The position numbers and the translations under genes are program-made. Source: Variovorax terrae (lineage in GTDB: Bacteria; Pseudomonadota; Gammaproteobacteria; Burkholderiales; Burkholderiaceae_C). Taken from it: 64,000 bases of DNA. The stretch is taken from the NCBI RefSeq assembly GCF_022809125.1, contig NZ_JALGBI010000003.1, positions 62,001-126,000 of the forward strand, in the 5' to 3' direction. A model generated the notes under the pieces. The model was not told the origin of the DNA and did not search any database. It saw only the letters and a program-made list of their open reading frames with translations. Shown here one piece after another: positions 304-56,178 of this stretch; positions within the stretch are counted from its first letter, which is position 1, and each line of letters begins with the position of its first letter.

Positions 304-3052
304 CCTGGCTTCCTTCAATGACCAGCGCCTCGCCGCTGCGGCTGGCGCGCAGGCCGGGCACGGCGCCCTGCAGCTCGCAGCCCGGGGCCACCAGCCGCGC
401 GTTGAGCGGCAGGTGGCCCTCGAAGGCCAGCCGCTGCAGCGCGCCGTCCTGCGTCCACGAAATCAGCCGCGCATTCGCCGATTCGAGATAAAAACCGGCG
501 GAGGTCCTTGTCCCTTGGTCATAGTTTGCTATCGATTTCGAAGCATGCAGGTACTCGACCGAGGCATGCCGCAGGTGGCCCGCGAAGCCGCTGGCCGGGC
601 TGAAGGCCGGCAGCGGCTGGTCGGCCTCGATGCGCCATTCGCGCAGGAAGCGCCCGCCGCGCAGTTCCAGCCCGCCGTCGGTGCGCGCCACGGTGGCGCG
701 GCGCCAGTCGAGCACGCGCTCGGCGTATTCGCTGGCGTAGACCGGGTGCAGCGTCTGGGCCTTGAGCCGGGCCTCGGCCCAGCCGTAGACCTTGTGCAGC
801 GAGGCGATGCTGGCGCGCTTGGTGACGATGTAGAGGTGGTAGTACATGTCCACCGGCTTGAGGCGCAGCGGCAGGTCGGTCATCTCGTAGGTCTCGGTCA
901 TGCGCTCGTAGCCGTAGAACGGGCCGGTCCAGTCGTTGGTGTAGACGTTCTCGTTCTGGTTGGGCGCGTAGACCTGGAACCAGTCGCCCTTCATCATGCC
1001 CAGCGGGCCGACCAGGGTCAGCGAGGGCTCGGCACGCGTGATCAGGGTGTCGCCGCCGTTCATGTTGAGCAGGCCGGCCTGGTAGGCCAGCTTCACGGGC
1101 TCGGCCAGCGGCTGGGTGTCGCCGCTCCACAGCACCATGCGGGTCTTCTTGCCGGGCGGCGCCAGGGTGTTGATGTAGTCGCGCGCGCCGACGATCTCGC
1201 GCACCGGGTCGTAGCGGTAGCCCGGGATCGGCAGCGCCATGACGGCGTTGCCGTGGGCGCGGCCGAGTTCCGAGTCGGCCCAGAAGAACGGGTGGCTCCA
1301 GGTGTGGCTGGCGATCTCGACATGCGGCAGCGCGAAGATCCTGCGCGCCGTGGCCTCCATCTGGGCCGACAGCGCCGGATACAGGCCGCGCGGCGAGACT
1401 TCGCCTTCGATGATGGAGATGGTGCTGGGCCAGCGGTAGCGCTCCAGGAACTCGCGCAGCAGGTGCTCGCCCGCGATCGGCGTGCCGGGAATCTCGGCGC
1501 GGCTCGGGAAGCCGTCGCCGTCCACGTGCACCATCAGCAGGCGGCGGCCGGTCTCGGTGGTGACGTCGGGCACCGGCACGCCGGGCGCCACGCGCAGCGC
1601 GGCGCGGAAGAAGGCGATCGGGTCGACCACCCAGCGCTCGCCGTTGTCCTGCGGCAGGTCGACCTTCCAGTAGCGGTCGGCCGCGAAGCCGCCCCAGGGC
1701 GTGACGGCCACCACGTCGGCCCGCTCGCCCTGTGCGCTGCGCACGCGCAGCCAGACCTCGCCCTGGCGCACGGTGGCAGGCGTGAAGCTGGCGGCCAGCG
1801 GCTTGGGCTCGATCTCGAAGCCGGTGTACTTCGAGAGTTTTTCCAGCGTCAGCGAGGTGGTGCTGCGTTTGGTCTCGCCGATGTCCACGCCGAACGCGTT
1901 CATCGCGGTGTCGCCGGGCAGCGCGCCGACCATCACCACCGGCACGCCCTGCACGCGCGCGGCGTTGAGCAGCTTCATGAGCGCAGGCGTCTCGTCGAAC
2001 GAGCCGCGGTTGAACCAGGTCACCACGCCCGCGTAGCGCCCGGCCAGCGGCTGCTCGGCCAGCTCGCGCATCTCGTCGGCGCCGTAGTAGACGTACTTCG
2101 CGTCCAGGCCGAGGTAGTTCAGCGGCAGCGTGCCCACGCGGTGGATCTCGTGCGTGGCCAGCTCCGACAGGTTGCCGGGCTCGTCATGGATCGCCAGCAC
2201 CTGGCGCGGCAGCACCTCCACCTGGCCGACGCCGAGGTTGTCGAGCTCGGGCGTGGCCACCCAGGGCACGATGCCCAGCGCCTTGATGCGGCGCGCCGTC
2301 TCGCGCGCCAGCGCCCGGTTCTCGGGCGGCACGTAGTCGATGGCCACCACCGGCAGGCGGTACTCGTCGCGGCACTTGCGCAGCTGCGCGAGCAGCCAGT
2401 CGCGGTCCTCGGCCGTCACCTCGCGGTACTCCTTGCGCTCGGCGTCCCAGCCCTGGAACAGCGATTCGGCCACCACCGCGTCCACCTGGCCGTGCACCTG
2501 CGGCAGGATCTCGAAGCCGCGGTTCAGGATCAGCCGGGCGTCGGGGTAGGCGCGCTTGATCTCCTGCACCAGCGCCGCGAGGCCGGCCACTTGGCGCTGC
2601 TGCGCCTGGGGCGTTTTGGCGACGAGCTGGAACGAATCGAGCGTGTCGAGGAAGAACGCGCGGTAGCCCTGCTGCCACAGCGGCCGCACCACCTGCGCGA
2701 GGTAGAACGCGCTCCAGCCCGGCGCCGCCTGGTCGACCACCACCGAGCCCCAGGCCCGGTTCTCGCCGAGCTTCCATTCGGGCCGCAGCTGCGCGAAATA
2801 GGGACGCGTGGGATGCACCTCGCCCACCGAGACGTAGGCCGCGACCGTGGTGTCCGGGTTGAGGCGGTGCGCCCAGCCCGTGGGGCCGACATGGCCCGGC
2901 TCGACCACGGCGACGTCGAAGGCGCCCAGCGCCTCCCACGGGATGTCCCGGCCGTAATAGAAGGCGAATGTGCCCAGGGTCCCCGCCGCATGGACGCCGG
3001 TTGCTATCAAAACTGCAGCAATCGCTGCCAGCCAGAGCCGCAGCCGGCGCAC
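266..3052 (-). CDS. pelA: PelA-like bifunctional glycoside hydrolase / polysaccharide deacetylase
   Basis: This periplasmic enzyme trims and de-N-acetylates Pel exopolysaccharide. It has 928 residues, close to the usual PelA length (about 950). A signal peptide (residues 1-22, ending VHA) is followed by a GH114/TM1410-type hydrolase domain with the acidic motif FLDTLDS near residues 134-140. A NodB-like deacetylase domain follows, with metal-binding HVDGDG at 509-514 and SHTWSH around H583 and H587. A beta-rich tail ends the protein. The start lies 2 bases after the epimerase stop, and the 3' end overlaps pelB, so the three genes form one operon. Oddity: residues 836-851 (read from bases 501-546) come from a copy of dispersed repeat family A, and a shorter piece of the same repeat core encodes part of the signal peptide (bases 3000-3021). 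Confidence 0.88.
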   Translation of the reverse strand: MRRLRLWLAAIAAVLIATGVHAAGTLGTFAFYYGRDIPWEALGAFDVAVVEPGHVGPTGWAHRLNPDTTVAAYVSVGEVHPTRPYFAQLRPEWKLGENRAWGSVVVDQAAPGWSAFYLAQVVRPLWQQGYRAFFLDTLDSFQLVAKTPQAQQRQVAGLAALVQEIKRAYPDARLILNRGFEILPQVHGQVDAVVAESLFQGWDAERKEYREVTAEDRDWLLAQLRKCRDEYRLPVVAIDYVPPENRALARETARRIKALGIVPWVATPELDNLGVGQVEVLPRQVLAIHDEPGNLSELATHEIHRVGTLPLNYLGLDAKYVYYGADEMRELAEQPLAGRYAGVVTWFNRGSFDETPALMKLLNAARVQGVPVVMVGALPGDTAMNAFGVDIGETKRSTTSLTLEKLSKYTGFEIEPKPLAASFTPATVRQGEVWLRVRSAQGERADVVAVTPWGGFAADRYWKVDLPQDNGERWVVDPIAFFRAALRVAPGVPVPDVTTETGRRLLMVHVDGDGFPSRAEIPGTPIAGEHLLREFLERYRWPSTISIIEGEVSPRGLYPALSAQMEATARRIFALPHVEIASHTWSHPFFWADSELGRAHGNAVMALPIPGYRYDPVREIVGARDYINTLAPPGKKTRMVLWSGDTQPLAEPVKLAYQAGLLNMNGGDTLITRAEPSLTLVGPLGMMKGDWFQVYAPNQNENVYTNDWTGPFYGYERMTETYEMTDLPLRLKPVDMYYHLYIVTKRASIASLHKVYGWAEARLKAQTLHPVYASEYAERVLDWRRATVARTDGGLELRGGRFLREWRIEADQPLPAFSPASGFAGHLRHASVEYLHASKSIANYDQGTRTSAGFYLESANARLISWTQDGALQRLAFEGHLPLNARLVAPGCELQGAVPGLRASRSGEALVIEGSQVGQTTVVLRCAG
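501..546 (+). repeat. Family A dispersed repeat, copy A1 (inside pelA)
   Basis: The left arm reads GGTCCTTGTCCCTTGGTC and the AT-rich core reads TTTGCTATCGATTTCGAAGC. The arm is nearly identical to copy A9 at 49988-50035. It lies inside the pelA coding region, antisense to the repeat, and is read through in frame as ASKSIANYDQGTRT. Its base composition is clearly lower in G+C than the surrounding gene. Confidence 0.8.
3000..3021 (+). repeat. Family A core fragment (in pelA signal peptide)
   Basis: TTGCTATCAAAACTGCAGCA matches the core of the family A repeat, but no left arm (GGTCC part) is visible next to it. It encodes about residues 11-18 of the PelA signal peptide (AIAAVLIA). It may be a truncated copy or a chance match. 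Confidence 0.4.
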
Positions 3053-3054
3053 GC

Positions 3055-10959: not shown

Positions 10960-11841
10960 GTGGAACTGGCAGACCTGGAAATATTTTGCACCGTGGCGGC
11001 CGAGCAGAGCGTGACGCGCGCCGCCGCGCGGCTGCAGCGCGTGCAGTCCAACGTCACCACGCGGGTGCGCGGGCTCGAGCAGGCGCTGGGCACGACGCTG
11101 TTCCTGCGCGAAGGCCGGCGCATGGCGCTCACGCCCGAGGGCGAGATTCTGCACGGCTACGCCCAGCGCCTGCTGGCGCTGGCCGAGGAGGCGCGCCAGG
11201 CCCTGCGGCCCGGCGAACCGGCCGGCCGGCTGCGCCTGGGCAGCATGGAGAGCACGGCGGCCAGCCGGCTGCCGCAGCCGCTGGCGCAGTTCCACCAGCG
11301 CTGGCCGGCCGTGGCACTGGAGCTCTCCACCGCGCCGTCCCAGCAGCTGCTCGACCGGGTGCGCGACCATGCGCTGGATGCGACCCTGGTGGCGCCCTAC
11401 GCCGACCCGGCCACCGGCTCCGACGGCCTGGATGCCAGCCTGCAGGGCCTGCCGCTGTTCACCGAGGAGCTGGTGCTGGTGCTGCCGGCCGCCCACCCCG
11501 AGGTGCGCGGCCCCGCCGACGTGCAGGCCCTGCCGCTGGCCGCCTTCGAGACCGGCTGCACCTACCGCCGCCTGGCGCTGGACTGGCTGGCGCCGGGGCC
11601 GCCCCGGCGCGTGCTGGAGCTGGGCTCGTACCACGCCATCCTGGCCTGCGTGGCGGCCGGCGCCGCCATCGGCGTGGCGCCGCACTCGGTGCTGGCCCTG
11701 CAGCGCGAGCCGCTGCAGCTGCGCACCCATCTGCTGCGGCGCGTCACCACGCTGCTGGTGCGCCGGCGCGGCTACCGCTCGGCCGCGCTCGATGCGCTGC
11801 AAGCGGTGCTGGCACCCGATTTATCAGTCAAATCGGCCTGA
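10960..11841 (+). CDS. LysR-family transcriptional regulator
   Basis: This is a 293-residue LysR regulator. The winged-helix domain is at residues 1-60 (ADLEIFCTVAAEQSVTRAAA, then VQSNVTTRVRGLEQALG) and the effector-binding domain starts near residue 88 (GRLRLGSMESTAA). The start is GTG at 10960, with AGAGGG upstream. It probably controls the divergent MFS and nitronate monooxygenase pair. Its stop codon lies inside family A repeat copy A3, so the repeat determines the last residues. GAPDH-type or CbbR-type effectors cannot be distinguished. Confidence 0.9.
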   Translation: MELADLEIFCTVAAEQSVTRAAARLQRVQSNVTTRVRGLEQALGTTLFLREGRRMALTPEGEILHGYAQRLLALAEEARQALRPGEPAGRLRLGSMESTAASRLPQPLAQFHQRWPAVALELSTAPSQQLLDRVRDHALDATLVAPYADPATGSDGLDASLQGLPLFTEELVLVLPAAHPEVRGPADVQALPLAAFETGCTYRRLALDWLAPGPPRRVLELGSYHAILACVAAGAAIGVAPHSVLALQREPLQLRTHLLRRVTTLLVRRRGYRSAALDALQAVLAPDLSVKSA

Positions 11842-11885
11842 TGTCCAGGTGCAGTGGTCGTTTCTAGCTATAAATTCTGTAGCAC
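11835..11885 (+). repeat. Family A dispersed repeat, copy A3 (between convergent genes)
   Basis: It starts with GGCCTGATGTCCAGGTG, then CAGTGGTC, and ends in the core TAGCTATAAATTCTGTAGCA. It lies between two convergent genes and carries the stop codons of both: the TGA of the LysR gene (11839-11841) and the stop of waaF (11868-11870). The left arm matches copies A5 and A4. Confidence 0.85.
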
Positions 11886-12851
11886 GCGGGCGGCCGTGAT
11901 GTCGTTCAGGCAGCGCGTGTGGCCGAGCGGGCACTCGCGCTCGAAGCAGGGCGCGCAGTCCAACGGCGGCTGGTAGGCCGGGTCGTTCTTGAGCCAGAGC
12001 ACGGTGGCGCGCTCGCTCAGCGGCGGCGTGTGCAGCGGGCTCGACGAGCCGAACACCGCCACCTGCGGCACGCCGAACGCGGCGGCCACATGCATCAGGC
12101 CCGAGTCGTTGCTCACCACGCTGCTGGCGGCGGCAATCGCGGCGAGCGCCTCGACCAGCGAGGTCTTGCCCGCGAGATTGAGGCAGCGCCCGGGCGCCGC
12201 GGCGCTGATCTCCTCGCACAGCGCGGCCTCCTTGCCCGAGCCCAGCAGCACCACGGGCAGCGTGAGCGCGCGCGCCAGTTCGGCGAAATGCGCCGTGGGC
12301 CAGCGCTTGGCCGGCCCGTACTCGGCGCCGGGGGCAAAGACGTGGTAGCCGCCACGCTGCAGGCCCAGGGACTGCAGCGCCGCCTCCACCTCGGCCCCGG
12401 GCAGCGAGAGTTGCGGGCGGTCCGCCTCGAAGCCGGTCTCGCCGCTGAGCGCCGAGTAGAACGCCACCATCGGCGGCTTGCCCTTGGGGTTCTTCAGCCG
12501 GTGCGTGAGCAGGCCCACGCGGGCCTCGCCGAGATAGCCGATGCGCCGCGGAATGCTGGCCAGGAACGGCAGCAGCGCGCTCTTGAGCGAGTTGGGCAGC
12601 ACGTAGGCCGTGTCGAAGCGGCCCTCGATCTGCTGCGCCAGGCTGCGGCGGGCCTTGAACTGCAGGCCGCCATGCTGGAACGGGAATTCGATCACCTCGT
12701 CCACCTGCGGCATCGCGCGGTAGACCGGCGCCACCCAGGGCAGCGCCCCGACGGCAAGCCGCTCGCCGCGCGCGTGCAGGCGGCGCAGCAGCGGCTCGGT
12801 CATCACCGCGTCGCCGATCCACTGCGGCGCAATGACGAGCGCTTCAGGCAT
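11868..12851 (-). CDS. waaF: LPS heptosyltransferase II (WaaF/RfaF)
   Basis: This is a GT9-family glycosyltransferase of 327 residues that adds the second heptose to the inner core of lipopolysaccharide at the inner face of the cytoplasmic membrane. It opens with LVIAPQWIGDAVMTEPLLRRL, the family signature. The nucleotide-sugar site includes SSVVSNDSGLMHVAAAFGVP and VFGSSSPLHTPP. The C-terminal Cys-rich CAPCFERECPLGHTRC is also typical. It is the third gene of a run ilvE, zinc-ribbon gene, waaF, with a family B repeat in the gap before it. The last residues and the stop codon come from family A copy A3. Confidence 0.93.
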   Translation of the reverse strand: MPEALVIAPQWIGDAVMTEPLLRRLHARGERLAVGALPWVAPVYRAMPQVDEVIEFPFQHGGLQFKARRSLAQQIEGRFDTAYVLPNSLKSALLPFLASIPRRIGYLGEARVGLLTHRLKNPKGKPPMVAFYSALSGETGFEADRPQLSLPGAEVEAALQSLGLQRGGYHVFAPGAEYGPAKRWPTAHFAELARALTLPVVLLGSGKEAALCEEISAAAPGRCLNLAGKTSLVEALAAIAAASSVVSNDSGLMHVAAAFGVPQVAVFGSSSPLHTPPLSERATVLWLKNDPAYQPPLDCAPCFERECPLGHTRCLNDITAARVLQNL

Positions 12852-18760: not shown

Positions 18761-19743
18761 ACCGACGCCACGCGCTCAACCGCCTCACCGGCCTGCTGGC
18801 CGCTGCCGCCGCGGCCAGCCCCGCCTCGCTGCTGGCCCAGGGCGACAAGCCCATCACCATCGTCGTGCCCTACGCGCCCGCCGGCACCACCGACATGCTG
18901 GGCCGCATGCTGGCGCAACAGATGGCGCCGCTGCTGGGCCGCCAGATCATCGTGGACAACAAGCCGGGCGCGGGCAGCGGCATCGGCGCAGGCTACGTCG
19001 CGCGCTCGGCGCCCGACGGCAACACGCTGCTGGTGGCCACCAGCACCACGCTGGCGATCAACCCCTGGCTCTACAAGAAGCTGAGCTACGACCCGGCCAA
19101 GGACTTCGCGCCCATCGGCATGATCGGCGCCGTGCCGCTGCTGGTGGTGGTGCATCCCTCGCTGCCGGTGAAGAACATCGCCGAGCTGATCGCGCTGTCC
19201 AAGGCCAAGCCCGAAGGCCTGAGCTACGGCTCGGCGGGCAACGGCAGCCCGCAGCACCTGGGCGTGGAGATGTTCAAGGCCCAGACCGGCGCCAACCTCA
19301 CCCACGTGCCCTACAAGGGCAGCGCGCCCGCGGTGACCGACCTGCTGGGCGGGCAGATCCAGGTGATGTTCAGCGACATCCCGCCCGCGCTGCAGCATGT
19401 GCGCTCGGGGCGGCTACGCGCCCTGGCCGTCACCTCGCTCAAGCGCCAGCCGGCCCTGTCGGACGTGCCCACCGTGGCCGAATCCGGGGCGCCCGGCACG
19501 CGCGGCTTCGAGGCCGTGGCCTGGCAAAGCCTGGTGGCGCCGGCCGGCACGCCCAAGGACCTTGTCGACCGCTACAGCCAGGCGCTGGCCAGGGTGATGG
19601 CGCAGCCGGAGCTGCGCGCCAAGCTCGAGCAGGACGGCTTCGAGCCCGGCACGGCCACCTCGGAACAGCTCGCGGCCTACATCAGGACCGAGACCGAGCG
19701 CTGGGGCAAAGTCATCCGCGCCTCCGGAGCCACCGTGGACTGA
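18757..19743 (+). CDS. Bug/TctC-family periplasmic binding protein 1
   Basis: This is a 328-residue tripartite tricarboxylate receptor (Bug) protein. A signal peptide (to LLAQ, about residue 28) precedes the conserved ITIVVPYAPAGTTDMLGR. Other family patterns are IIVDNKPGAGSGIG, SYGSAGNGSPQHLG and HVPYKGSAPAVTDLLGG. Such proteins bind carboxylated aromatics or organic acids for uptake or sensing. The ATG overlaps the monooxygenase stop (ATGA), which ties it to that enzyme's substrate. No TctA or TctB membrane partner is nearby. Confidence 0.93.
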   Translation: MNRRHALNRLTGLLAAAAAASPASLLAQGDKPITIVVPYAPAGTTDMLGRMLAQQMAPLLGRQIIVDNKPGAGSGIGAGYVARSAPDGNTLLVATSTTLAINPWLYKKLSYDPAKDFAPIGMIGAVPLLVVVHPSLPVKNIAELIALSKAKPEGLSYGSAGNGSPQHLGVEMFKAQTGANLTHVPYKGSAPAVTDLLGGQIQVMFSDIPPALQHVRSGRLRALAVTSLKRQPALSDVPTVAESGAPGTRGFEAVAWQSLVAPAGTPKDLVDRYSQALARVMAQPELRAKLEQDGFEPGTATSEQLAAYIRTETERWGKVIRASGATVD

Positions 19744-20256: not shown

Positions 20257-20912
20257 ACCTTCCGATATCGGGAACGGTGTACGGCGTCCTGCTGAACTTC
20301 CATGGCGAAGTGCAGGCGCTCGAACCGCAGATGAACCAGCCGCCCTACAAGGCCGCGCCCCGCGCGCCCATCCTGTACGTGAAGCCGGCCAACACCTGGA
20401 GCGCGCACGGCGCGGCCATCCCCGTGCCGGCGCGCGTGCCGCAGGTCGAGGTGGGCGCCACGATTGCGATGGTGATGGGGCGTGATGTCCAGGCCGCGCG
20501 GTCTTCGGATGCTATCGATTCAGTAGCAGGCTACGTCTTGATGAACGATCTCTCGATTCCGCATGCGAGCTTCTTCCGGCCGCCGGTCAAGTTCAAGTGC
20601 CTGGACGGCTTTCTCGGCGTCGGCCCGCAGCTGCGCGCGGCCGCCGAAGCCGGCGACCCGGCCGGCTTCGCGCTGGAGGTGCATGTCAACGGCGTGCTGA
20701 AGCAATCCCTGCGTTTTGCCGACCTCGTGCGCAACGCCTCGCAGCTGCTGGCCGATGTCAGCGCCTTCATGACGCTGCACGCCGGCGATGTGCTGATGCT
20801 GGGCTGCGGCCCCGGCCGGCCGCTGGCGCAGGCGGGCGACCGCATCGACATCAGCGCGCCGGGCTTCGCCACGCTGAGCAACACCCTGGCGCCCGAAGGG
20901 AGTGCCGCATGA
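20253..20912 (+). CDS. hpaG1: FAH-family HpaG N-terminal-type subunit
   Basis: This is a 219-residue fumarylacetoacetate hydrolase fold protein. It matches the N-terminal half of bifunctional HpaG, the decarboxylase/isomerase acting after ring cleavage. It begins ISGTVYGVLLNFHGEVQAL and includes APILYVKPANTW, VAGYVLMNDLSIPHASFFRP and FLGVGPQL. The start is GTG at 20253, overlapping the hpaR stop. It is followed by a separate C-terminal-type protein, so HpaG is split here. Residues 77-93 (GRDVQAARSSDAIDSVAG) are encoded by a family A repeat, apparently without changing the protein's length. Confidence 0.88.
   Translation: MNLPISGTVYGVLLNFHGEVQALEPQMNQPPYKAAPRAPILYVKPANTWSAHGAAIPVPARVPQVEVGATIAMVMGRDVQAARSSDAIDSVAGYVLMNDLSIPHASFFRPPVKFKCLDGFLGVGPQLRAAAEAGDPAGFALEVHVNGVLKQSLRFADLVRNASQLLADVSAFMTLHAGDVLMLGCGPGRPLAQAGDRIDISAPGFATLSNTLAPEGSAA
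20481..20530 (+). repeat. Family A dispersed repeat, copy A4 (inside hpaG1)
   Basis: GATGTCCAGG, then GCGGTCTTCGGAT and the core GCTATCGATTCAGTAGCA. The left part matches copy A3. It lies in frame in a coding region and is read in the repeat's sense direction. The encoded segment sits where ordinary family members have a segment of the same length. Confidence 0.75.
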
Positions 20913-31945: not shown

Positions 31946-31982
31946 AGCAAACTTTGACCACCCGACGCGGACATCAGGCCCA
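31931..31982 (-). repeat. Family A dispersed repeat, copy A5
   Basis: Read on the minus strand: GGCCTGATGTCCGCGTCGGG, then TGGTCAAAG and the core TTTGCTCTAGTTTTGATAGC. It supplies the stop codon of the class II aldolase and fills the whole gap to the next ATG at 31984. Confidence 0.85.
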
Positions 31983-31983
31983 A

Positions 31984-33766: not shown

Positions 33767-34864
33767 CTACTCCGCCACCACCACCGGCACGCGCGGCGCC
33801 AGCGCGCACATCAGTTCGTAGCCCACGGTGCCGGCGGTGGCGGCCACCTCGTCGATCGGCAGCACCGTGCCGTTGGCGGCGCGGCCCCACAGCGTGACCT
33901 CGCTGCCGAAGCCGGCCTCGGGCACCGGCGTGAGGTCCACCGCGATCATGTCCATGCTGACGCGGCCCACGGTGCGGGTGCGCACGCCGTCCACCAGCAC
34001 CGGCGTGCCGGTGGGGCACAGGCGCGGGTAGCCGTCGGCATAGCCGCAGGCCACGGTGCCGATCCGGAGCGGCGCCTCGGCCGTAAAATTGGAGCCATAT
34101 CCCACGGAGGTCCCCGCCAGCAGGTGCTGGACAGCTATGATTTTGCTAGCAAGCGTCATCGCCGGCTGCAGACCCCAGTGGGCCGCGGAATGCTCGGGAA
34201 AGTCGGGCGCGCTGCCGTACACCGCGATGCCGGGCCGCACCCAGTCGGCGCGCACGGCGGGATCGGCCGCGTGGCGCAGCGTGGCGGCGCTGTTGGACAG
34301 CGTGCGCTCGCCGGGCAGGTCCTGCGTGGCGGCCTGGAAGGCGGCGAGCTGCTGCGCGATGCCGCGCGGGCCGTCGGCGTCGCTGAAGTGCGTCATCAGC
34401 GAGATCTCGTCCACCTGCGGCAGTGCGTTCAGGCGGGTCCAGGCGGCGCGGTAGCGCTGCGGCGTGAAGCCCAACCGGTTCATGCCCGAGTTCATCTTGA
34501 GGAACACGCGGTGCGGCTGGTGCGTCTTGTGGGTGGCCAGCATGTCGATCTGCTCGTCGCAGTGCACGGTGTGCCACAGGCCCAGGCGCGAGCACAGCTC
34601 GAGGTCGCGCGGCTCGAACACGCCTTCGAGCAGCAGGACCGGGCCGCGCCATCCGAGGCGGCGCACGCGCTCGGCTTCGTCCAGGTCGATCAGCGCGAAA
34701 CCGTCGGCGCCGCGCAGGCCTTCGTAGGCGCGCTCGATGCCGTGGCCATAGGCATTGGCCTTCACCACCGCCCACACTTTCGCATCGGGTGCGGCCTGCC
34801 GCGCACGCAGCAGGTTGTGGCTCAGGGACGAGGTGTGGATGGTGGCGAGAATGGGGCGTGGCAT
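33767..34864 (-). CDS. alr: Alanine racemase
   Basis: This is a PLP-dependent racemase of 365 residues that supplies D-alanine for peptidoglycan. The PLP-binding lysine is K35 ([12 protein letters not shown]). The second catalytic residue, a tyrosine, is Y256 ([10 protein letters not shown]). Other motifs are [27 protein letters not shown] and [13 protein letters not shown]. Residues 238-254, immediately before the catalytic tyrosine, are encoded by a family A-like repeat, without visible change of length compared with ordinary racemases. The gene is divergent from lplT. Confidence 0.95.
34106..34154 (+). repeat. Family A-like repeat, copy A11 (inside alr)
   Basis: It has a clear core (GCTATGATTTTGCTAGCA) preceded by GGAGGTCCCC and GGTGCTGGACA. 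The right half agrees well with the family; the left arm is diverged. It is read in frame by alr as [15 protein letters not shown], in the same frame as copies A1 and A8. It is the weakest of the in-gene copies. Confidence 0.5.
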
Positions 34865-38247: not shown

Positions 38248-38733
<486 letters not shown>

Positions 38734-38760
38734 TCTGCCTTTTTTCAGGCAGAAACCGCC

Positions 38761-38813
38761 CGAGGTCCAGGTGGGGCGGTCATTTTCTGCTATCAATTCT
38801 GAAGTAAATGGCA
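38761..38813 (+). repeat. Family A dispersed repeat, copy A6
   Basis: GAGGTCCAGGTGGGGCGGTC, then ATTTTCT and the core GCTATCAATTCTGAAGTA. It lies between the convergent glutathione peroxidase and WYL-regulator genes. Here it is wholly intergenic. Confidence 0.85.
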
Positions 38814-38820: not shown

Positions 38821-39534
38821 TCACGGCGCGGTGCCCGTCGCGCCCCACTGGCGCTGCTCGTCCTCGTGGCGGCGCAGCAGGTCGGCCAGCGTGCGGCCCG
38901 GCTCGTCGCGGAAATGCTCGTCGAGCGTGCGCACGAAGCTGACGCGGTCGACACGGAAGCTGCGGAAATCCTGCCGCTGCTCGCACCAGGCGGCCAGCGT
39001 CCAGACCTTGCCCCAGTAGAAGCAGCCCAGCGGACGCAGGATGCGTTCGCTGGGCTTGTCGTCCTGGTCGCGATAGTGGATGAACAGCTTGCGCCGCGAC
39101 TGCACCGCCTCGCGCAGGGTCTGCAGCGTGCGCTGGGCCGTGGGCCCCAGCCCCACGGCGGGGGCGAAGATCGCCAGGCTCTCGGCCGCCACGCGGGCAT
39201 CGACCGGCAACAGCGGCAGGATCTTGCCGAGCGCGTCCTGCGCCGCGCGGGCCAGCGCCGGGTCGAGCCAGGCCTCGGCCAGCCGCACCGAGGCCACCAG
39301 CGCCTTGGCCTCGTCCTGGGTGAACATCATCGGCGGCAGGTCGAAGCCGGCGCCCAGCCGGTAGCCCACGCCGGCCTCGCCCTCGATCGGCACGCCCTGG
39401 TGCTGCAGGTCGGCCACGTCGCGGTAGATGGTGCGCTCGGACACCTCCAGCCGGCCGGCCAGGAAGGCCGCCGTGGTCAGGCGGCGGCCACGGATGAGCT
39501 GGACGAGATGGAACAGTCGGTCGGCGCGGCGCAT
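38821..39534 (-). CDS. YafY-type HTH/WYL transcriptional regulator
   Basis: This is a 237-residue regulator. An N-terminal HTH_11 domain (residues 1-60, RADRLFHLVQLIRGRRLTTA, then LEVSERTIYRDVADLQHQGV) precedes a WYL ligand-binding domain (about 130-220) with LFIHYRDQDDKPSERILRPL and CFYWGKVWTLAAWCEQRQDF. WYL domains sense nucleic acids or small ligands, and many members regulate defence or stress genes. The target is not evident; the DUF4148 gene is divergent from it. Confidence 0.9.
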   Translation of the reverse strand: MRRADRLFHLVQLIRGRRLTTAAFLAGRLEVSERTIYRDVADLQHQGVPIEGEAGVGYRLGAGFDLPPMMFTQDEAKALVASVRLAEAWLDPALARAAQDALGKILPLLPVDARVAAESLAIFAPAVGLGPTAQRTLQTLREAVQSRRKLFIHYRDQDDKPSERILRPLGCFYWGKVWTLAAWCEQRQDFRSFRVDRVSFVRTLDEHFRDEPGRTLADLLRRHEDEQRQWGATGTAP

Positions 39535-40122: not shown

Positions 40123-40283
40123 TGCCGCCTCGCGCCGCGACGCCGGAGGACGGTCCCTGAACCAAGCCCCGGGGCATCTCAGCCTTTCTTGGCCGGCCGG
40201 ACCGGGCCGCGTGCCGCCACAGGCCGCGGCAAGGCCGCCCGCACCGCCCGCGCGGCCGGCACGCCTGCTTTCGAAGGTCTTTT
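40123..40283 (-). other. Gap with possible relic of an EVE-protein tail
   Basis: No gene is assigned between the terminator and repeat copy A7. On the minus strand, 40179-40280 keeps an open frame for a Lys/Arg/Pro/Ala-rich sequence (PKRPSKAGVPAARAV, ending RPAKKG, stop at 40179). That is out of frame with the EVE gene upstream because of the repeat between them. Confidence 0.35.
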
Positions 40284-40337
40284 AGGCCTGGGGTCCTTGT
40301 CCAGCCGTTGCATGTAGCTATTAAAAATGTAGCAAAA
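40284..40337 (+). repeat. Family A dispersed repeat, copy A7
   Basis: GGCCTGGGGTCCTTGTCC, then AGCCGTTGCAT and the core GTAGCTATTAAAAATGTAGC. The left arm matches A1 and A9. It overlaps the 3' end of the EVE-domain gene and provides its stop codon. Confidence 0.85.
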
Positions 40338-40764
40338 CACGAGACGCCTCCATGGCCTCGGCGATCCGCCGCATGTCGCTGTCACCGATCTCGAACAGGC
40401 CGAAGCGGAATTTGTAGCCCCAATGCTGCCGGTCGTCCACGAATTCCAGTACGTCCAGCAAGGGCAGGATCGACGCCTCGCGCGCCGGCACATAGGCCAC
40501 GCCGCGCCGGTAGGGCACGAAGCCGCCACCCATGTCGAAGGCATAGGGCTCGCCGGGCTGCACCACGCCGATGCTCACGAAGCTCTGGCAGCGCGGCCCG
40601 CCGCCCATCGCGAGGCCGGGCGCGTAATAGGCCACGCGGTCGCCCGGCCGCACGCGGCGGATCGGCGCGAGCCGGCCGTGGCACACCTGCATGAAGCCGC
40701 CGCCCGCATCGTCGCGGCCGCGCCGCGCATGCTCGGCGCTGGCCACCGCAATCCAGTTCCTCAT
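40321..40764 (-). CDS. EVE-domain (PUA-like) protein
   Basis: This is a 147-residue protein of the EVE/PUA-like fold, which binds modified bases. It begins MRNWIAVASAEHARRGRDDA and contains FMQVCHGRLAPIRRVRPGDR, VAYYAPG and MGGGFVPYRRGVAY. EVE proteins are linked to restriction and modified-DNA recognition, but no such system is nearby. The ATG at 40764 is chosen; a TTG at 40770 overlaps the stop of the VOC gene. The last residues and the stop come from repeat copy A7, so the native C-terminus may have been replaced. Confidence 0.85.
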   Translation of the reverse strand: MRNWIAVASAEHARRGRDDAGGGFMQVCHGRLAPIRRVRPGDRVAYYAPGLAMGGGPRCQSFVSIGVVQPGEPYAFDMGGGFVPYRRGVAYVPAREASILPLLDVLEFVDDRQHWGYKFRFGLFEIGDSDMRRIAEAMEASRVLLHF

Positions 40765-41213: not shown

Positions 41214-42458
41214 TCAGGAGACTGGCAGTGCCTCGTCCAGCAGCTCGATCCAGTGCCGCACCGGCGTGGCCGTGCCGCTTTGCAGGTGCGTGATGCAGCC
41301 GATGTTGGCCGAGAGGATGGCCTGCGGCGCCAACTCGCCCAGGTGGCCGAGCTTGCGGTCGCGCAGCTGGGTGGCAATGCCGGGGTTGAGCACCGAGTAG
41401 GTGCCGGCCGAGCCGCAGCACAGGTGCGCCTCGTTCGTGGCCGTGCGCACCTGAAAGCCCAGCGCGCCCAGGTGCTGCTCCACGCCGCCGCGCAACTGCT
41501 GGCCATGCTGCAGCGTGCAGGGCGGGTGGAAGGCCAGCAGGCCGGCGGGCGGCTTCACCCGGCCGCGCAGCGCCTGCACCAGCGCGGGCAGCAGCTCGCT
41601 CAGGTCTTTCGTCAGCGCGCTGATGCGCTGCGCCTTGGCGGCATAGGCCGGGTCGTCCTTCAGCACGTGGCCGTAGTCCTTGACCGTGACGCCGCAGCCC
41701 GAGGCGTTCATGACGATCGCCTCGACACCGGCGCCGCCGTCCTGCGGCTCGACGTGCGGCCACCAGGCGTCGATGTTGGCGCGCATCTGGGCCCTGGCGC
41801 CGTCCTGGTCGTTGAGGTGGAATTTCACCGCGCCGCAACAGCCCGCCTCGGGCGCGACCACGGCCTGGACGCCGGCTGCGTCGAGCACGCGCGCGGTGGC
41901 GCGGTTGATGTTGGGCAGCATCGCGGGCTGCACGCAGCCGGCCAGCATCAGCATCTTGCGCGCGTGCTGGCGCACGGGCCAGGCGCCGGCCTCCTGCTTC
42001 GGCGGCACCTTGGCCTGGAGTGCCGCGGGCAGCAGGCCGCGCACGCTCTGGCCGAGCTTCATCGCGGGGCCGAACAGCGGCGAGGGCAGGCCTTCCTTGA
42101 GCGCCCAGCGCAGGGCGCGTTCGGCGGCCGGGCGCGGCACTTTCTCATCGACGATCTTGCGGCCGATGTCCACCAGGTGGCCGTACTGCACGCCGCTGGG
42201 GCAGGTGCTCTCGCAGTTGCGGCAGGTCAGGCAGCGGTCCAGGTGCAGTTGCGTGGCGCGCGTGGGCGCCTCGCCCTCGAGCACCTGCTTGATGAGGTAG
42301 ATGCGCCCGCGCGGGCCGTCGAGCTCGTCGCCCAGCAGCTGGTAGGTCGGGCAGGTGGCGGTGCAGAAGCCGCAGTGCACGCACTTGCGCAGGATGGCCT
42401 CGGCCTCGGCGCCGTCGGGCGTGTTCTTGAATTCGGGAGCGAGGTTCGTCTGCATCAC
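41214..42458 (-). CDS. glcF: Glycolate oxidase iron-sulfur subunit
   Basis: This is a 414-residue Fe-S subunit that carries electrons from the flavin subunits of glycolate oxidase at the membrane. Two ferredoxin motifs, KCVHCGFCTATCPTYQ (near residues 31-45) and RCLTCRNCESTCPSGV (near 81-96), bind two [4Fe-4S] clusters. Two CCG domains follow, with GAVKFHLNDQD, CLAGCVQPAM-like LAGCVQPAMLPNINR and CCGSAGTYSVLNP. The ATG overlaps the glcE stop (ATGA). Confidence 0.95.
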   Translation of the reverse strand: MMQTNLAPEFKNTPDGAEAEAILRKCVHCGFCTATCPTYQLLGDELDGPRGRIYLIKQVLEGEAPTRATQLHLDRCLTCRNCESTCPSGVQYGHLVDIGRKIVDEKVPRPAAERALRWALKEGLPSPLFGPAMKLGQSVRGLLPAALQAKVPPKQEAGAWPVRQHARKMLMLAGCVQPAMLPNINRATARVLDAAGVQAVVAPEAGCCGAVKFHLNDQDGARAQMRANIDAWWPHVEPQDGGAGVEAIVMNASGCGVTVKDYGHVLKDDPAYAAKAQRISALTKDLSELLPALVQALRGRVKPPAGLLAFHPPCTLQHGQQLRGGVEQHLGALGFQVRTATNEAHLCCGSAGTYSVLNPGIATQLRDRKLGHLGELAPQAILSANIGCITHLQSGTATPVRHWIELLDEALPVS

Positions 42459-43573
42459 AACTCCCGGTACAGGCGGCCGCGGTTCAGGATGCCGGCCGGG
42501 TCGAACTCGGCCTTGAGCTGGCGGTGGAGACGGTCCAGCGGCGGCTTCAGGGCATCAAATCGGGCCAATGTCCTTGTCGTGGGGTCTTTTTTTGCTATGA
42601 AAAGCGTAGCATGCCCGCCAGCAGCCGCAGCCGCGGCGCGCAGGCGGGGCGCGTCCTGCGCGCTGGCGTGCACCCAGCGCTGGGCGCCGTGCCACTCGAC
42701 CAGCGGCGGCTCGGGCAGGTCCAGCACCGGCGCGGTCTGCGGCACCGAGAGGCGCCACAGATCGCGCCCGCCGCCCGCCTGGAACCAGGGCAACTGCTGC
42801 TCGCGGCACAGCGCCCAGTCGGGCGCGACCAGGGCGTTGTCCTGGCGCTCGCCGCCCAGCGTGCGGCAGGCGGCCTCGACCGCCGCCACCGCGCCGCGCA
42901 GGCGCAGGTAGAGCGTGCCCACGCCCATGTCCTCGACCCAGCAGCTCGCATTCAGCGGCAGCGGCTGGCCGCCCCAGCGGTTGAGTTGGGCCAGCGCCTC
43001 GGCCTGGTCCATCTCGAACTTCAGCGTGGCCTCGGCCGGCGCGCGCGCCAGCACCTTGAGGCTGACCTCGGCAATCAGCCCCAGCGTGCCGAGCGCGCCC
43101 ACCATCAGGCGCGAGACGTCGTAGCCCGCCACGTTCTTCATGACCTGGCCGCCGAAAGTGAGCAGCTCGCCGCGGCCATTCAGCAAAGTCATGCCGAGCA
43201 CATAGTCGCGCACCGCGCCGACGCTGGCGCGCGCCGGGCCGCTCAAGCCCGTAGCCACCATGCCGCCGACGGTCGCTGTGCTCCCTGCGGCGCTACCGAA
43301 ATGCGGCGGCTCGAACGGCAGGCACTGGCCGCGTTCGGCCAGCACGGCCTCCAGCTCGGCCAGCGGCGTGCCGGCGCGCACGGTGACCACCAGCTCGCTC
43401 GGCTCGTAGCTGGTGATGCCGGCCAGCGGCCGGGTGTCGAGCAGCTCGCCCACGGGCGGCTCACCATAGAAATCCTTGCTGCCGCCGCCGCGGATGCGCA
43501 GCGGCTGGCCGGCGGCCGCGGCGGCGCGGATGCGGTCGGCGATCTGGCTGAGGGCTGGGTCCATGAGCTGCAT
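42455..43573 (-). CDS. glcE: Glycolate oxidase FAD-binding subunit
   Basis: This is a 372-residue FAD-binding subunit. Its N-terminal FAD-binding region includes PLRIRGGGSKDFYGEPPVGE and GGMVATGLSGPARASVGAVR, then FGGQVMKNVAGYDVSRLMVG. The usual C-terminus DPAGILNRGRLYREL is present. It is normally encoded between glcD and glcF; here glcD is missing and an SMP-30 gene lies upstream. Residues 321-338 (ATLFIAKKDPTTRTLA) are encoded by family A repeat copy A8, within a surface-variable segment near the C-terminus. I place the start at 43573; an internal ATG at 43564 is possible. Confidence 0.9.
   Translation of the reverse strand: MQLMDPALSQIADRIRAAAAAGQPLRIRGGGSKDFYGEPPVGELLDTRPLAGITSYEPSELVVTVRAGTPLAELEAVLAERGQCLPFEPPHFGSAAGSTATVGGMVATGLSGPARASVGAVRDYVLGMTLLNGRGELLTFGGQVMKNVAGYDVSRLMVGALGTLGLIAEVSLKVLARAPAEATLKFEMDQAEALAQLNRWGGQPLPLNASCWVEDMGVGTLYLRLRGAVAAVEAACRTLGGERQDNALVAPDWALCREQQLPWFQAGGGRDLWRLSVPQTAPVLDLPEPPLVEWHGAQRWVHASAQDAPRLRAAAAAAGGHATLFIAKKDPTTRTLARFDALKPPLDRLHRQLKAEFDPAGILNRGRLYREL
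42561..42613 (+). repeat. Family A dispersed repeat, copy A8 (inside glcE)
   Basis: GGGCCAATGTCCTTGTC, then GTGGGGTCTTTT and the core TTTGCTATGAAAAGCGTAGC. It is antisense to glcE and read in frame as ATLFIAKKDPTTRTLA, in the same frame as copy A1 in pelA. It is visibly richer in A+T than the rest of the gene. Confidence 0.8.
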
Positions 43574-48440: not shown

Positions 48441-49982
48441 ATGAGCTTGTCTTTGGTGCAAAGCCGTGCCCTGCTGGGGCTGGAAGCGGCGGCCGTCACC
48501 GTCGAGGTGCATCTGGCCAATGGCCTGCCGAGCTTCACGCTGGTGGGGCTGGCCGAGGTGGAGGTTAAGGAGGCGCGCGAGCGGGTGCGCAGCGCGCTCC
48601 AGAACTCGGGCCTCGAGTTTCCCCACAACAAGCGCATCACCGTGAATCTGGCGCCGGCCGACCTGCCCAAGGATTCGGGCCGCTTCGACCTGCCGATCGC
48701 ACTCGGCATCCTGGCCGCCAGCGGCCAGATCGACGCCGCGCGGCTGGCCGGCCACGAGTTCGCGGGCGAGTTGTCGCTGTCGGGCGAGCTGCGGCCGGTG
48801 CGCGGCGCGCTGGCCATGAGCCTGGCCCTGCGGGCGCAGCAGGCCCAGCCCCGGCTGGTGCTGCCGGCCGCCAGCGCCGAAGAAGCCGCGCTGGTGCCCG
48901 GCATGCAGGTCTATGGCGCCCGCCACCTGCTCGACGTGGTGCGCCAGTTCCTGCCCGCGCCGAAGGAGGCCGCGCCCGCCGAGGACGACACCGGCGGCTG
49001 GGTGCGCGTGCCGCCGCGGCGGGCCCGGCCGCCCGCGGCGCGCTATGCCGACCTGGCCGACGTCAAGGGCCAGGCCGCCGCCAAGCGCGCGCTGGAGATC
49101 GCGGCGGCTGGCGGCCACAGCGTGCTGATGGTGGGCCCGCCGGGCTCGGGCAAGTCGATGCTGGCCCAGCGCTTTGCCGGCCTGCTGCCGGCCATGAGCG
49201 TGGACGAGGCGCTGCAAAGCGCGGCCGTGGCCAGCCTGGGCGGGCGCTTCTCGCTGGAGCACTGGGCCACCCGGCCGACCTGCAGCCCGCACCACTCGGC
49301 CAGCGCGGTAGCGCTGGTGGGGGGCGGTTCGCCGCCGCGGCCCGGCGAAATCTCGCTGGCCCACCATGGCGTCCTTTTTCTGGACGAACTGCCCGAATTT
49401 CCGCGCGCCGCCCTGGAGGCGCTGCGCGAGCCGCTGGAAACCGGCACCATCACGATTTCGCGCGCGGCGCGGCGCGCCGAATTTCCGGCGCGCTTCCAGA
49501 TGATCGCGGCCATGAACCCCTGCCCTTGCGGCTACCTGGGCTCGCCGCTCAAGGCCTGCCGCTGCACGCCCGACCAGGTGTCGCGCTACCAGGGCCGGCT
49601 CAGCGGCCCGCTGCTCGACCGCATCGACCTGCACGTGGAAGTGCCGGCCCTGCCGCCCGCCGACCTGCTGCAGGCGGGCGCGGGCGAATCCACCGGCCCC
49701 ATCCGCGAGCGCTGCACGGCGGCGCGGGAGCGCGCGCTGCAGCGCCAGGGCAAGCCGAACCAGGCGCTGGCCGGCCAGGAGATCGACGACCACCTGGCGC
49801 TGGAAGATGCCGCCGCGAAGTTTCTCAACACCGCCGCCGCGCGGCTGGGCTGGAGCGCGCGCTCGACCCACCGCGCGCTCAAGGTGGCGCGCACCATCGC
49901 CGACCTGGCCGGCGCCGGCACGACGCAGGTGGCGCACATCGCCGAAGCCGTGCAGTACCGGCGCGCGCTGCGCCCGGCCTGA
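48441..49982 (+). CDS. comM: YifB/ComM family Mg-chelatase-like AAA protein
   Basis: This is a 513-residue AAA+ helicase-like protein related to ComM, which helps branch migration in natural transformation. The N-terminal ChlI-like domain has LSLVQSRALLGLEAAAVTVE and SFTLVGLAEVEVKEARERVR. Walker A is MVGPPGSGKSMLAQRF and Walker B is GVLFLDELPEFPRAALEALR. The Cys-rich MNPCPCGYLG and RCTPDQVSRYQGRLSGPLLD follow. The ATG at 48441 has GGGGAG 9 bases upstream. Family A copy A9 begins 6 bases after its stop. Confidence 0.95.
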   Translation: MSLSLVQSRALLGLEAAAVTVEVHLANGLPSFTLVGLAEVEVKEARERVRSALQNSGLEFPHNKRITVNLAPADLPKDSGRFDLPIALGILAASGQIDAARLAGHEFAGELSLSGELRPVRGALAMSLALRAQQAQPRLVLPAASAEEAALVPGMQVYGARHLLDVVRQFLPAPKEAAPAEDDTGGWVRVPPRRARPPAARYADLADVKGQAAAKRALEIAAAGGHSVLMVGPPGSGKSMLAQRFAGLLPAMSVDEALQSAAVASLGGRFSLEHWATRPTCSPHHSASAVALVGGGSPPRPGEISLAHHGVLFLDELPEFPRAALEALREPLETGTITISRAARRAEFPARFQMIAAMNPCPCGYLGSPLKACRCTPDQVSRYQGRLSGPLLDRIDLHVEVPALPPADLLQAGAGESTGPIRERCTAARERALQRQGKPNQALAGQEIDDHLALEDAAAKFLNTAAARLGWSARSTHRALKVARTIADLAGAGTTQVAHIAEAVQYRRALRPA

Positions 49983-49987
49983 GCGCC

Positions 49988-50035
49988 AATTGCTACCAAA
50001 TCAATAGCAAACAATGACCAGGGGACAAGGACATC
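49988..50035 (-). repeat. Family A dispersed repeat, copy A9
   Basis: On the minus strand: GATGTCCTTGTCCCCTGGTC, then ATTG and the core TTTGCTATTGATTTGGTAGC. It is nearly identical to A1 (501-546) in the left arm and lies just downstream of comM. Confidence 0.9.
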
Positions 50036-50238
50036 TGCGCGATTTCCTTGCCAAATACGGCGCCACCCCGGCCGTACAGCCCGAAACCGGGGCCGTCTGT
50101 TGACTTATACCTAAATGTAGTAAGGGAATGGATAAACTGTGAGGCATGGGGTGTATCGCCCGCCCAGGCCGCGCGACACCGGGCCCTGGCGCCACGAACG
50201 GCCTGCCCCTTTCTACAACGCCTGATCTTTCCTGAACC

Positions 50239-53319: not shown

Positions 53320-54285
53320 ATGGACAAAAGACATTTCCTGCGGCTGCTGGCCGCCACCCCGGTGGCCGCGGCCCTCCCCACCTCGGCGCAGCAGCGCTAC
53401 CCGGACCACGCCGTCCGCCTGATCGCACCGTTCGCCGCGGGCAGCACCAGCGATACGTCGGCGCGCTTCATCGCGCAGTACATGGCGGTGGCACTCAAGC
53501 AGAGCGTGGTGGTGGACAACCAGCCCGGCGCGGACGGCCGCATCGGCATGATGGCGGCCAGGAACGCCGCGCCCGATGGCTACACACTGGTACTGGGCAG
53601 CTGGACCAACCTCGCGGTGAATCCCATCCTGATCAAGGCGCTGCCCTACGACCCGCTCAAGGACTTCAAGCCGGTGGCCGGCATCGGGCGCAGCATGCTG
53701 GGCATCGCGGTGCCGGGCAATTCGCCGCGCAAGACGCTGGCCGACCTGCTCGATGCCGCCAGGAGCCGGCCGCGGGCGGTGAACTTCGGCAACTTCGGCA
53801 CCGGCTACCGGCTGGCCGCGGAGTGGCTGTCCAGCCTGTCGGGCGCGCAGTTCACCCATGTACCGTACAAGACCACCAGCCAGATGAACACCGACCTGGC
53901 CGGCTCGCAGATCGACGCGGGCATGGACGGCGTGACCTCGCTCACGCCGCTGGTCAAGTCGGGCCAGTTGCGGCTGCTGGCCGTGACCGGCGAGCAGCGC
54001 CACCCGGAATTCCCCGAGGTGCCGACCATCAAGGAAACCTACCCCGAGTTCTCGGTCTACGGCTGGTCGGCATTGATGGTGCGCGCGGAGGTGCCGGACG
54101 AGATCACCGCGCGGCTGGCCGCGACCGTGCAGGCCATCATGGCCTCACCCGAAGGCAAGGCGTTTGCACAGCGCGTGGGCTCGGAGCTGCTGCTGCGCGG
54201 CACCAGCGAGATGCGCAAGTACCAGGTCGAGCAGATCGAGACGCTGCGCCGCGTGGCCGAGGCGGCCGGCATGAAGCCCGAATGA
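53320..54285 (+). CDS. Bug/TctC-family periplasmic binding protein 4
   Basis: This is a 321-residue Bug receptor with a Sec signal (MDKRHFLRLLAATPVAAALP). The mature start VRLIAPFAAGSTSDTSARFI, then VVVDNQPGADGRIGMMAA and HVPYKTTSQMNTDLAG, are typical. It is the third gene of the enoyl-CoA hydratase operon and convergent with the IclR gene, 23 bases away. Its ligand is probably the acid imported for the same pathway. Confidence 0.92.
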   Translation: MDKRHFLRLLAATPVAAALPTSAQQRYPDHAVRLIAPFAAGSTSDTSARFIAQYMAVALKQSVVVDNQPGADGRIGMMAARNAAPDGYTLVLGSWTNLAVNPILIKALPYDPLKDFKPVAGIGRSMLGIAVPGNSPRKTLADLLDAARSRPRAVNFGNFGTGYRLAAEWLSSLSGAQFTHVPYKTTSQMNTDLAGSQIDAGMDGVTSLTPLVKSGQLRLLAVTGEQRHPEFPEVPTIKETYPEFSVYGWSALMVRAEVPDEITARLAATVQAIMASPEGKAFAQRVGSELLLRGTSEMRKYQVEQIETLRRVAEAAGMKPE

Positions 54286-55100: not shown

Positions 55101-55149
55101 GCGGCGATCCTAACGCCCACGCCGCGCGGGCCCAGGCGCCTGCCCCGTG

Positions 55150-55170: not shown

Positions 55171-55189
55171 ACTCCGGAGTCTTTTCCCC

Positions 55190-56140
55190 ATGAAACTGGC
55201 CACCCTTGCCCGTGACGGCCGCGCCGTCCCCGCCCTGTTCGACGCCGCTGGCGTGTTCGACCTGCAGGTGGTGCTGGCGGTGCTGCCCACCGGCCAGCGC
55301 CACGGCTTTGGCGGTGCCGCCGCCGGCCCGCTGTCCATGCTCGACCTGGTCGCCGCCGGCGAGCGTGCGCATGCGCTGTGCCGCCAGGTGGCGCAGCAGC
55401 CGCATGCCTTCGCCGTCGCGCGGATCGCGCCGGCCCAGGTGCGCCTGCTCGCACCGCTGCCCCGCACGCCGCGCAACGTGTTCTGCCTGGGCCGCAACTA
55501 TGCGGACCATATCCAGGAGGACAACCTCTCGCGCGACAAGGCGACGCCGCTGCCCGAGCATCCGCAGTTCTTCACCAAGCCCGCCAGCGCCATCGTCGGC
55601 GACGGTGCCGCCATCCGCTACGACGAGCGCGTCACGCGCCGGCTGGACTACGAGGTGGAGCTGGCCGTCGTCATCGGCACCGGTGGGCGCGACATCGCGG
55701 CGGCGGACGCGATGCGCCACGTGTTCGGCTACACCATCGTCAACGACATCACCGCGCGCGACCTGCAGCGCCGCCACGACCAGTGGTTCAAGGGCAAAGC
55801 GCTGGACACCAGCTGCCCCATGGGGCCGTGGATCGTGAGCGCCGACGAGATCGCCGACCCGCACGCGCTCGCGATCGCGCTGGACGTCAACGGCGAGCCG
55901 CGCCAGCACGCCAGCACCGGCGACATGATCTTCAAGATTCCGCAAATCATCGAGTCGCTCTCGGCCGGGCTGACGCTGGAGCCCGGCGACGTGATCGCCA
56001 CCGGCACGCCCTCGGGCGTGGGCTACGCGATGAACCCGCGCCGCTTCCTGACAGGCGGCGACGTGATCGAATGCCGCATCGACGGCATCGGCCGGCTCGT
56101 CAACACCGTCGAAGCCGTTCAGCCTGACGCTATCAAATAG
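55190..56140 (+). CDS. Fumarylacetoacetate hydrolase family protein
   Basis: This is a 316-residue FAH-fold protein. The metal-binding pattern is in RLDYEVELAVVIGTGGRDIA, with FCLGRNYADHIQEDN, FTKPASAIVGDGAAIRY, FGYTIVNDITARDLQRRHDQ and ATGTPSGVGYAMNPRRFL. It could be an acylpyruvase or a 2-keto-diacid hydrolase. It is divergent from its probable IclR regulator. The stop codon TAG lies inside family A copy A10, which also encodes the last residues. Confidence 0.9.
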   Translation: MKLATLARDGRAVPALFDAAGVFDLQVVLAVLPTGQRHGFGGAAAGPLSMLDLVAAGERAHALCRQVAQQPHAFAVARIAPAQVRLLAPLPRTPRNVFCLGRNYADHIQEDNLSRDKATPLPEHPQFFTKPASAIVGDGAAIRYDERVTRRLDYEVELAVVIGTGGRDIAAADAMRHVFGYTIVNDITARDLQRRHDQWFKGKALDTSCPMGPWIVSADEIADPHALAIALDVNGEPRQHASTGDMIFKIPQIIESLSAGLTLEPGDVIATGTPSGVGYAMNPRRFLTGGDVIECRIDGIGRLVNTVEAVQPDAIK

Positions 56141-56178
56141 ATAGCACTCATCATATGCCGGGCCTGGACTGGAGCCTC
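56127..56178 (-). repeat. Family A dispersed repeat, copy A10
   Basis: On the minus strand: GGCTCCAGTCCAGGCCCGGC, then ATATGATGA and the core GTGCTATCTATTTGATAGCG. This copy has the most perfect core palindrome (GCTATC / GATAGC). It ends the FAH gene and leads into the MFS promoter. Confidence 0.75.

Follow-up and report, generated by a model that had tools for sequence, protein, structure and literature searches.

A long dispersed motif with lineage-specific versions in Variovorax terrae and its relatives: a candidate uptake-sequence-like self tag

Introduction

To our knowledge, uptake sequences have been established only in the Neisseriaceae and the Pasteurellaceae. Neisseriaceae uptake sequences are located in and between genes, and the uptake signal sequences of Pasteurellaceae comprise a core plus AT tracts, occur on both strands, and are found as gapless degenerate copies. 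REP elements with RAYT transposases are a further class of repeats, with hundreds of copies, a palindromic part, and intergenic enrichment. All of these traits are shared by the motif described here, which is dispersed over a 64,000-nucleotide stretch of the Variovorax terrae genome (NCBI RefSeq assembly GCF_022809125.1, contig NZ_JALGBI010000003.1, positions 62,001 to 126,000 of the forward strand; hereafter, the window). A first-pass annotation of the window had described a dispersed repeat of about 50 bp with a GCTAT..ATAGC core. We found that this repeat is a genuine family-wide motif with lineage versions. It has a high copy number, its presence or absence is length-neutral at the coding sites tested, it is confined, in the genomes that were searched, to one bacterial family, where it is patchily present, and its middle part differs between genomes. 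On balance, we favour the interpretation that the motif is a candidate self tag, long and uptake-sequence-like, that is spread by transformation.

The passages of PMC4212676 that treat uptake sequences name the Neisseriaceae and the Pasteurellaceae as the two families concerned. Neisseriaceae uptake sequences, as described in the relevant part of PMC3630211, likewise have many copies per genome and lineage dialects, whereas the present motif is not a short word but extends over about 66–77 bp in three parts, belongs to another family and has a candidate function. Compared with the Pasteurellaceae signals, it is longer, has a palindromic AT-rich end and occurs at about 0.12 copies per kb. The nearest named repeat is the beta-proteobacterial repeat element (BRE), which the pertinent sections of PMC3110155 report from Comamonadaceae and Bordetella as usually intergenic, with some genic copies; in Bordetella its GC content is 63.7–78.9% (average, 69.0%) and its copies are often in tandem. 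In contrast, the copies studied here are dispersed and have a GC content of 43–61% (median, 52%; 49 copies). None of the 49 copies reaches 63.7%, so identity with BRE was rejected, the two being set apart by the description of GC content and not by sequence. A literature search retrieved no paper combining “DNA uptake sequence” with Comamonadaceae, and the literature on Acidovorax, Comamonas, Burkholderiales, uptake and repeats contained no description of the motif among the matches listed.

Results and Discussion

Structure of the motif

An iterated profile search of the window and 20 fixed-step stretches of the same genome (464 kb altogether) yielded 53 hits at E<1e-3, and no hits were obtained when the same search was repeated after dinucleotide shuffling. 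From 60 hits, which include reverse-strand shadows, 51 uncut strong copies (E up to 1e-6) were kept and gave a profile with 77 columns and about 67 bits, a figure that is somewhat inflated because the copies were picked by score. The strong copies contained no insertions or deletions relative to one another. Their pairwise identity averaged 53% and did not exceed 74%, and divergence as strong as this points to a motif and not to recently made copies. GTCC and GCT were invariant in 51/51 copies, and AGC of the right arm of the core was found in 48 to 51 of the 51. Read from arm to core in 49 of the strong copies, three parts follow one another: the AT box (TTnnnAGnCAAAT), then a middle rich in GC (GGCCnGAGGTCCnnGTCnnGnGGTCATnG), then the core TTGCTATnAATTnnGTAGCA. 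The repeat family proposed in the first-pass annotation is thus real, and the element is longer than the 50 bp given there (about 66–77 bp), the AT box lying to the left of the arm that had been described.

Dependence between columns was strongest between neighbours and resembled the exchange of small blocks (AG/TT/GC at columns 33–34; ATT/AAA/TTT at columns 60–62); weaker pairs of distant columns were present, but formed no helix. A core with AT tracts and block exchange of neighbouring columns resembles a site recognized by DNA-shape readout. This resemblance speaks for the main rival explanation, in which a protein that organises the chromosome or repairs DNA would bind the motif as a nucleoid, segregation or recombination signal, and selection on the chromosome would keep it there without any relation to uptake. 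We consider this explanation unlikely; evidence on both of its sides is given below.

Copy number and placement

The V. terrae genome contains the exact core, GCTATNNATTNNGTAGC, 49 times and the reversed control of this core not once. The exact core is present in all three contigs of this genome that were searched, as would also be expected of a chromosome site. When the 464 kb were extended by 20 further stretches to 864 kb, 99 copies were found (12 per 100 kb); the second sample alone contained 48 copies in 400 kb, corresponding to about 590 per genome. According to gene calls made with a simple hexamer-based caller, 39 of the 99 copies lie wholly inside open reading frames (ORFs), 21 antisense and 18 sense, 57 lie between genes or over gene ends, and three are at stretch ends. 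Carrier genes supported by Pfam include those for ComEC, RecG, UbiA, Hsp70, a squalene/phytoene synthase, an NAD(P)H-hydrate repair enzyme and alanine racemase. The V. terrae comEC gene (L017:10898-13300), which encodes the DNA uptake channel, carries a strong copy at aa 389–411.

The 57 copies outside or over the ends of genes are unevenly distributed. A p-value for intergenic enrichment, in which copies that overlap gene ends count as intergenic, was set aside. Divergent gaps hold only two of them, though such gaps make up 19% of intergenic bases, convergent gaps hold 19 (20% of intergenic bases), and tandem gaps hold 36, in orientations of 19 and 17. An early impression that the core always points towards the 3′ end of a gene was contradicted by the tandem gaps of this larger sample. 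The excess in convergent gaps and the scarcity in divergent gaps, together with a called stop codon inside the core in 4/11 window copies, speak for a transcription terminator or another RNA element at gene ends. When 12 strands of six copies were folded as RNA, 4/12 had a z-score below −2, which also agrees with such an element; the other eight ranged from −0.10 to −1.96, with structures that differed by copy, and no structure beyond the core was shared. Furthermore, pair covariation was absent in GGCC/GGTC, the core showed C–A mismatches, and Rfam gave no match on any copy. Considering also that copies occur in both senses inside ORFs and in both orientations between tandem genes, we regard an RNA element as very improbable. 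The first-pass annotation had suggested that the core could form a small hairpin or bind a protein: a protein-binding site remains plausible, and a conserved RNA fold beyond a weak core hairpin was not seen.

Substitution at orthologous coding sites

One motif copy lies in a gene that we take, from its relatives, to be dxr. We retrieved 80 relatives of this gene, 42 of which are covered by the alignment display. Many of the 42 have an AT box and a core at the same codons with a different middle, and others encode similar residues by GC-rich instead of AT-rich codons. The distance from flank to flank of the V. terrae dxr copy differed by 0 bases from that in 38/39 core-less orthologs, and the same was true of 46/46 core-less orthologs for the dxr copy of relative L037. 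Two further coding sites were compared among the relatives; they lie about 8 and 9.5 kb downstream from the dxr core, beyond the V. terrae stretch compared. The difference there was mostly 0; for example, 23/28 orthologs were equal (the rest differing by 3, 6 or 9 bases), as were 29/29, but 20/29 in another comparison. For UbiA, compared as proteins, 0/56 homologs, taken irrespective of whether their genes bear the motif, had a gap at the element. In the dxr genes, ATA was found at the core in 21/22 core-bearing genomes, as compared with 19/363 isoleucine codons elsewhere in the same genes (79/80 loci counted, L063 not entered); this codon test is partly circular because RTAGC belongs to the definition of the core. 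The length comparisons indicate that the motif arises by substitution at dxr and mostly also at the two other coding sites.

An insertion model, with a miniature inverted-repeat transposable element (MITE) or another insertion element, was rejected for dxr, where occupied sites showed no gain in length. The mobile element with filled and empty sites that the first-pass annotation implied was likewise not borne out: at testable coding sites, most motif-free relatives carry native sequence of equal length. A decayed MITE or a REP/RAYT-type mobile repeat would account for the high copy number, the palindromic core, the intergenic enrichment and the varying length of intergenic orthologous sites, and a Y1 transposase is encoded in 112/150 genomes of the family. 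This explanation, already weakened by the dxr site and by the lack of insertions and deletions among the 51 strong copies, seems highly doubtful. No Y1 match was found in the core-rich genomes G020 (290 cores), G040 and G068 (at least 3/47) nor, by inference, in G140. The statement that no transposase accompanies the repeat also held, in that the one Y1 transposase gene found in the V. terrae genome has no copy within 1.5 kb on either side. A REP/RAYT identity was therefore rejected on the distribution and the neighbourhood of Y1_Tnp and because the copies are not restricted to extragenic DNA; unlike REP elements, the motif needs no Y1 transposase, is common inside genes (39/99) and leaves the length of dxr unchanged. 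As a separate observation, genome G015 has about 20 Y1 transposase matches, several with an identical score, which look like an active IS200-like family.

Gapless replacement of native coding sequence by copies that are far diverged, with no transposase needed, could also be the work of a sequence that propagates itself, without uptake specificity, by being copied over partly similar places through templated strand annealing or gene conversion. Short-patch double illegitimate recombination offers a parallel. Such a sequence would overwrite codons as well and insert nothing, and in its lineage-specific versions the ends would be fixed and the middle could be exchanged. Many genera, however, share coding sites that have the core and differ in the middle, and these sites therefore look old and kept, not freshly hit; in addition, no template or enzyme was found. 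We judge this explanation to be rather improbable. If it were true, the motif would be self-propagating DNA of a kind that is neither a transposon nor an uptake tag.

Distribution among genomes

In 150 genomes of the family, V. terrae included, the number of core matches was bimodal. At least 15 forward matches, and up to 380, were found in 47 genomes, and no match in 76/150, with controls giving 0–5. In 243 genomes of other families, obtained by an order-wide draw, there were at most 7 core matches in a column, which is near the controls. Among the genomes searched, the motif is thus confined to one family, in line with the Comamonadaceae repeat family suggested by the first-pass annotation. 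In 1.43 Mb from the 80 relatives, the full profile of the V. terrae type found six weak hits, and its best score was 66 bits in the V. terrae genome and 47 bits in any other of 149 (at most 31 places were scored in each genome, so that counts are lower bounds).

Presence is patchy within the family. Polaromonas b69 has 293/283 core matches as compared with 17/15 in Polaromonas JS666, and Acidovorax NO-1 has 140/147 as compared with 18/20 in Acidovorax Root219; Giesbergeria anulus has 3/3 and a Limnohabitans 0/0. In a tree of dxr from which the element had been left out (79 rows; L054 and L063 not entered, V. terrae added), presence in 23/79 rows requires 10 changes, as compared with a mean of 20 in shuffles. 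Where all three coding sites could be scored (65 loci; the dxr site located via the antisense frame), 31 loci had the motif at none of the sites, 13 at all, and 21 were mixed or intermediate. Close relatives differ in having the sites or lacking them almost completely, and the motif is therefore largely a property of whole genomes. Near-total loss in close relatives would be unexpected if the motif were bound by a housekeeping protein of the chromosome.

Lineage versions

Core flanks in ten other genomes showed other recurring middles in a common frame. In a held-out test of the flanks with the core omitted, 162 copies taken from 11 genomes were scored, and 110 of them matched the profile of their own genome best, with 49/53 for V. 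terrae, 16/19 for G064, 16/22 for G031, 6/10 for G085 and 4/5 for G020. Dialects of one frame are therefore clear in about five of the eleven genomes. Variation of the middle between genomes within one frame is a second feature that would not be expected of the site of a housekeeping protein. In G064 (L142-L145), one 11-base middle word was present in 13/19 copies and in 0/143 others; with so uniform a middle, this dialect looks as if it were young. A single query of the G064 type had no match in plasmid and phage collections.

A candidate self tag

The interpretation that we favour assumes a self-recognition motif in three parts, namely the AT box, the lineage-specific middle and the GCTAT..RTAGC core. 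The transformation machinery would include a receptor that binds this motif, so that DNA bearing it is taken up preferentially. The DNA taken up would recombine at the homologous place, and ordinary gene replacement would substitute copies that fit the receptor better for poorer ones; motifs would therefore accumulate in place by substitution, in genes and between them, with no change in length. A change in the receptor would lead to a change of dialect across the whole set. We infer the receptor, the uptake bias and the spread by transformation from the pattern of the copies: biased uptake with recombination is expected to leave just such a trait, one written by substitution in hundreds of places, on both strands and within genes, that has lineage versions and is lost collectively. 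The scarcity of copies in divergent gaps and their larger number in convergent gaps also speak for this interpretation. Among the traits of uptake sequences, genome-wide over-representation, occurrence on both strands, genic and intergenic location, origin by substitution (at dxr and mostly at two other coding sites) and dialects were all observed, and the short word of about 9–12 bp was not, the profile extending over about 66–77 bp with 67 bits.

Transformation of Verminephrobacter eiseniae, obtained among others with a pilBC fragment, is sequence-specific and depends on type IV pili, and Acidovorax temperans was transformed only by DNA of its own species (PMC4212676); the passages of that article on these two bacteria name no motif for either. 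The self-tag interpretation fits these reports of sequence-specific transformation and, if true, would explain them. It would also add a third and much longer uptake sequence, that is, an independent case of the evolution of DNA self-recognition, and provide many natural dialects, and close relatives that have or lack the motif, as a system for tests. Even if it is wrong, a long motif kept by substitution in hundreds of places, with lineage-specific middles, needs an explanation.

Several observations weigh against this interpretation. First, known uptake sequences are 9–11 bp according to the section of PMC4212676 that treats them, and the present motif is far longer. Second, the length comparison is not uniform: scattered or non-zero differences were seen at intergenic orthologous sites, in the coding copy L019:6549 and at site L081:920, and the comEC copy sits in a loop of variable length and is gapless relative to one of four relatives. 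Third, dialects are not clear in six genomes of the held-out test (G125, G004, G003, G035, G009 and G099; 5–13 cores each), in which 19/53 copies together scored best with the profile of their own genome. Fourth, a ComEC match was found in 46/47 core-rich and in 98/103 other genomes, nearly equal proportions that make ComEC non-discriminating. In two core-rich genomes ComEC is broken or partial, being in four pieces in different frames in G003 and limited to query residues 14–238 in G042; perhaps competence was lost recently with the motif persisting, or else the cause may be an error of assembly or the end of a contig. Fifth, three plasmids (131 kb) contained one near-core, a sample by which scarcity in mobile DNA is hardly probed.

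Finally, copies on contig C1 of V. terrae read from arm to core more often along the leading strand (56 vs 26), which uptake does not predict and a chromosome site could explain; the replication strand switch, near 1.83 Mb, was placed by eye from the skew. A G-rich motif may instead follow the general skew. The complete genome G099 showed no obvious strand switch by eye among 100 of 127 places listed, which argues against a chromosome site.

Copies in the window and other features

With the window copies excluded from training, a profile built on 38 copies located elsewhere in the genome recovered 11/11 copies in the window, ten with E-values from 2.6e-17 to 4.7e-07 and the weakest with 1.5e-04; three further weaker rows were reverse-strand shadows of the same copies. 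The profile gave no hits (E<1) in 20 dinucleotide-shuffled windows. It also gave none (E<0.1) in 460 kb from loci of 25 relatives picked for lacking the core. The ten repeats named in that annotation, and a further “core fragment”, were all found where it had placed them and aligned without gaps over the 77 columns. The fragment, given as 3000–3021, proved to be a full copy at 2951–3027. Orientation varies as reported, with eight copies on the plus strand and three on the minus strand.

Four copies lie inside called ORFs. Copy A1 (476–552, +; E 4.4e-13) is within ORF 266–3010 (−), which encodes a GH114 domain; A4 (20459–20535, +; E 6.6e-11) is within ORF 20277–20912 (+); the weak copy A11 (34082–34158, +; E 2.5e-07) is within the alanine racemase gene, 33767–34864 (−); and A8 (42542–42618, +; E 3.3e-12) is within ORF 42455–43573 (−), which encodes an FAD-binding domain protein. 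The full copy at 2951–3027 (+; E 7e-11) is near the called start of ORF 266–3010 (−). The core holds the called stop of ORF 11868–12851 (−) in A3 (11815–11891, +; E 2.6e-17), of ORF 31172–31945 (+) in A5 (31924–32000, −; E 1.4e-11), of ORF 40321–40746 (−) in A7 (40265–40341, +; E 4.7e-07) and of ORF 55190–56140 (+) in A10, the weakest copy (56121–56197, −; E 1.5e-04). Copy A6 (38737–38813, +; E 1.2e-15) lies between the convergent ORFs 38248–38733 (+) and 38821–39534 (−), and A9 (49984–50060, −; E 1.1e-15) directly follows ORF 48456–49982 (+).

Two other features were also seen in the window. An S-adenosylhomocysteine (SAH) riboswitch (RF01057, 57.6 bits) is located at 61194–61277 (−), upstream of a long ORF at 58435–61149 (−). 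Four direct repeats of 102 nt, 65–71% alike, are located at 18994–19095, 21932–22033, 30304–30405 and 53554–53655 in four separate ORFs, which are probably paralogous genes and presumably encode receptors of the Bug/TctC type.

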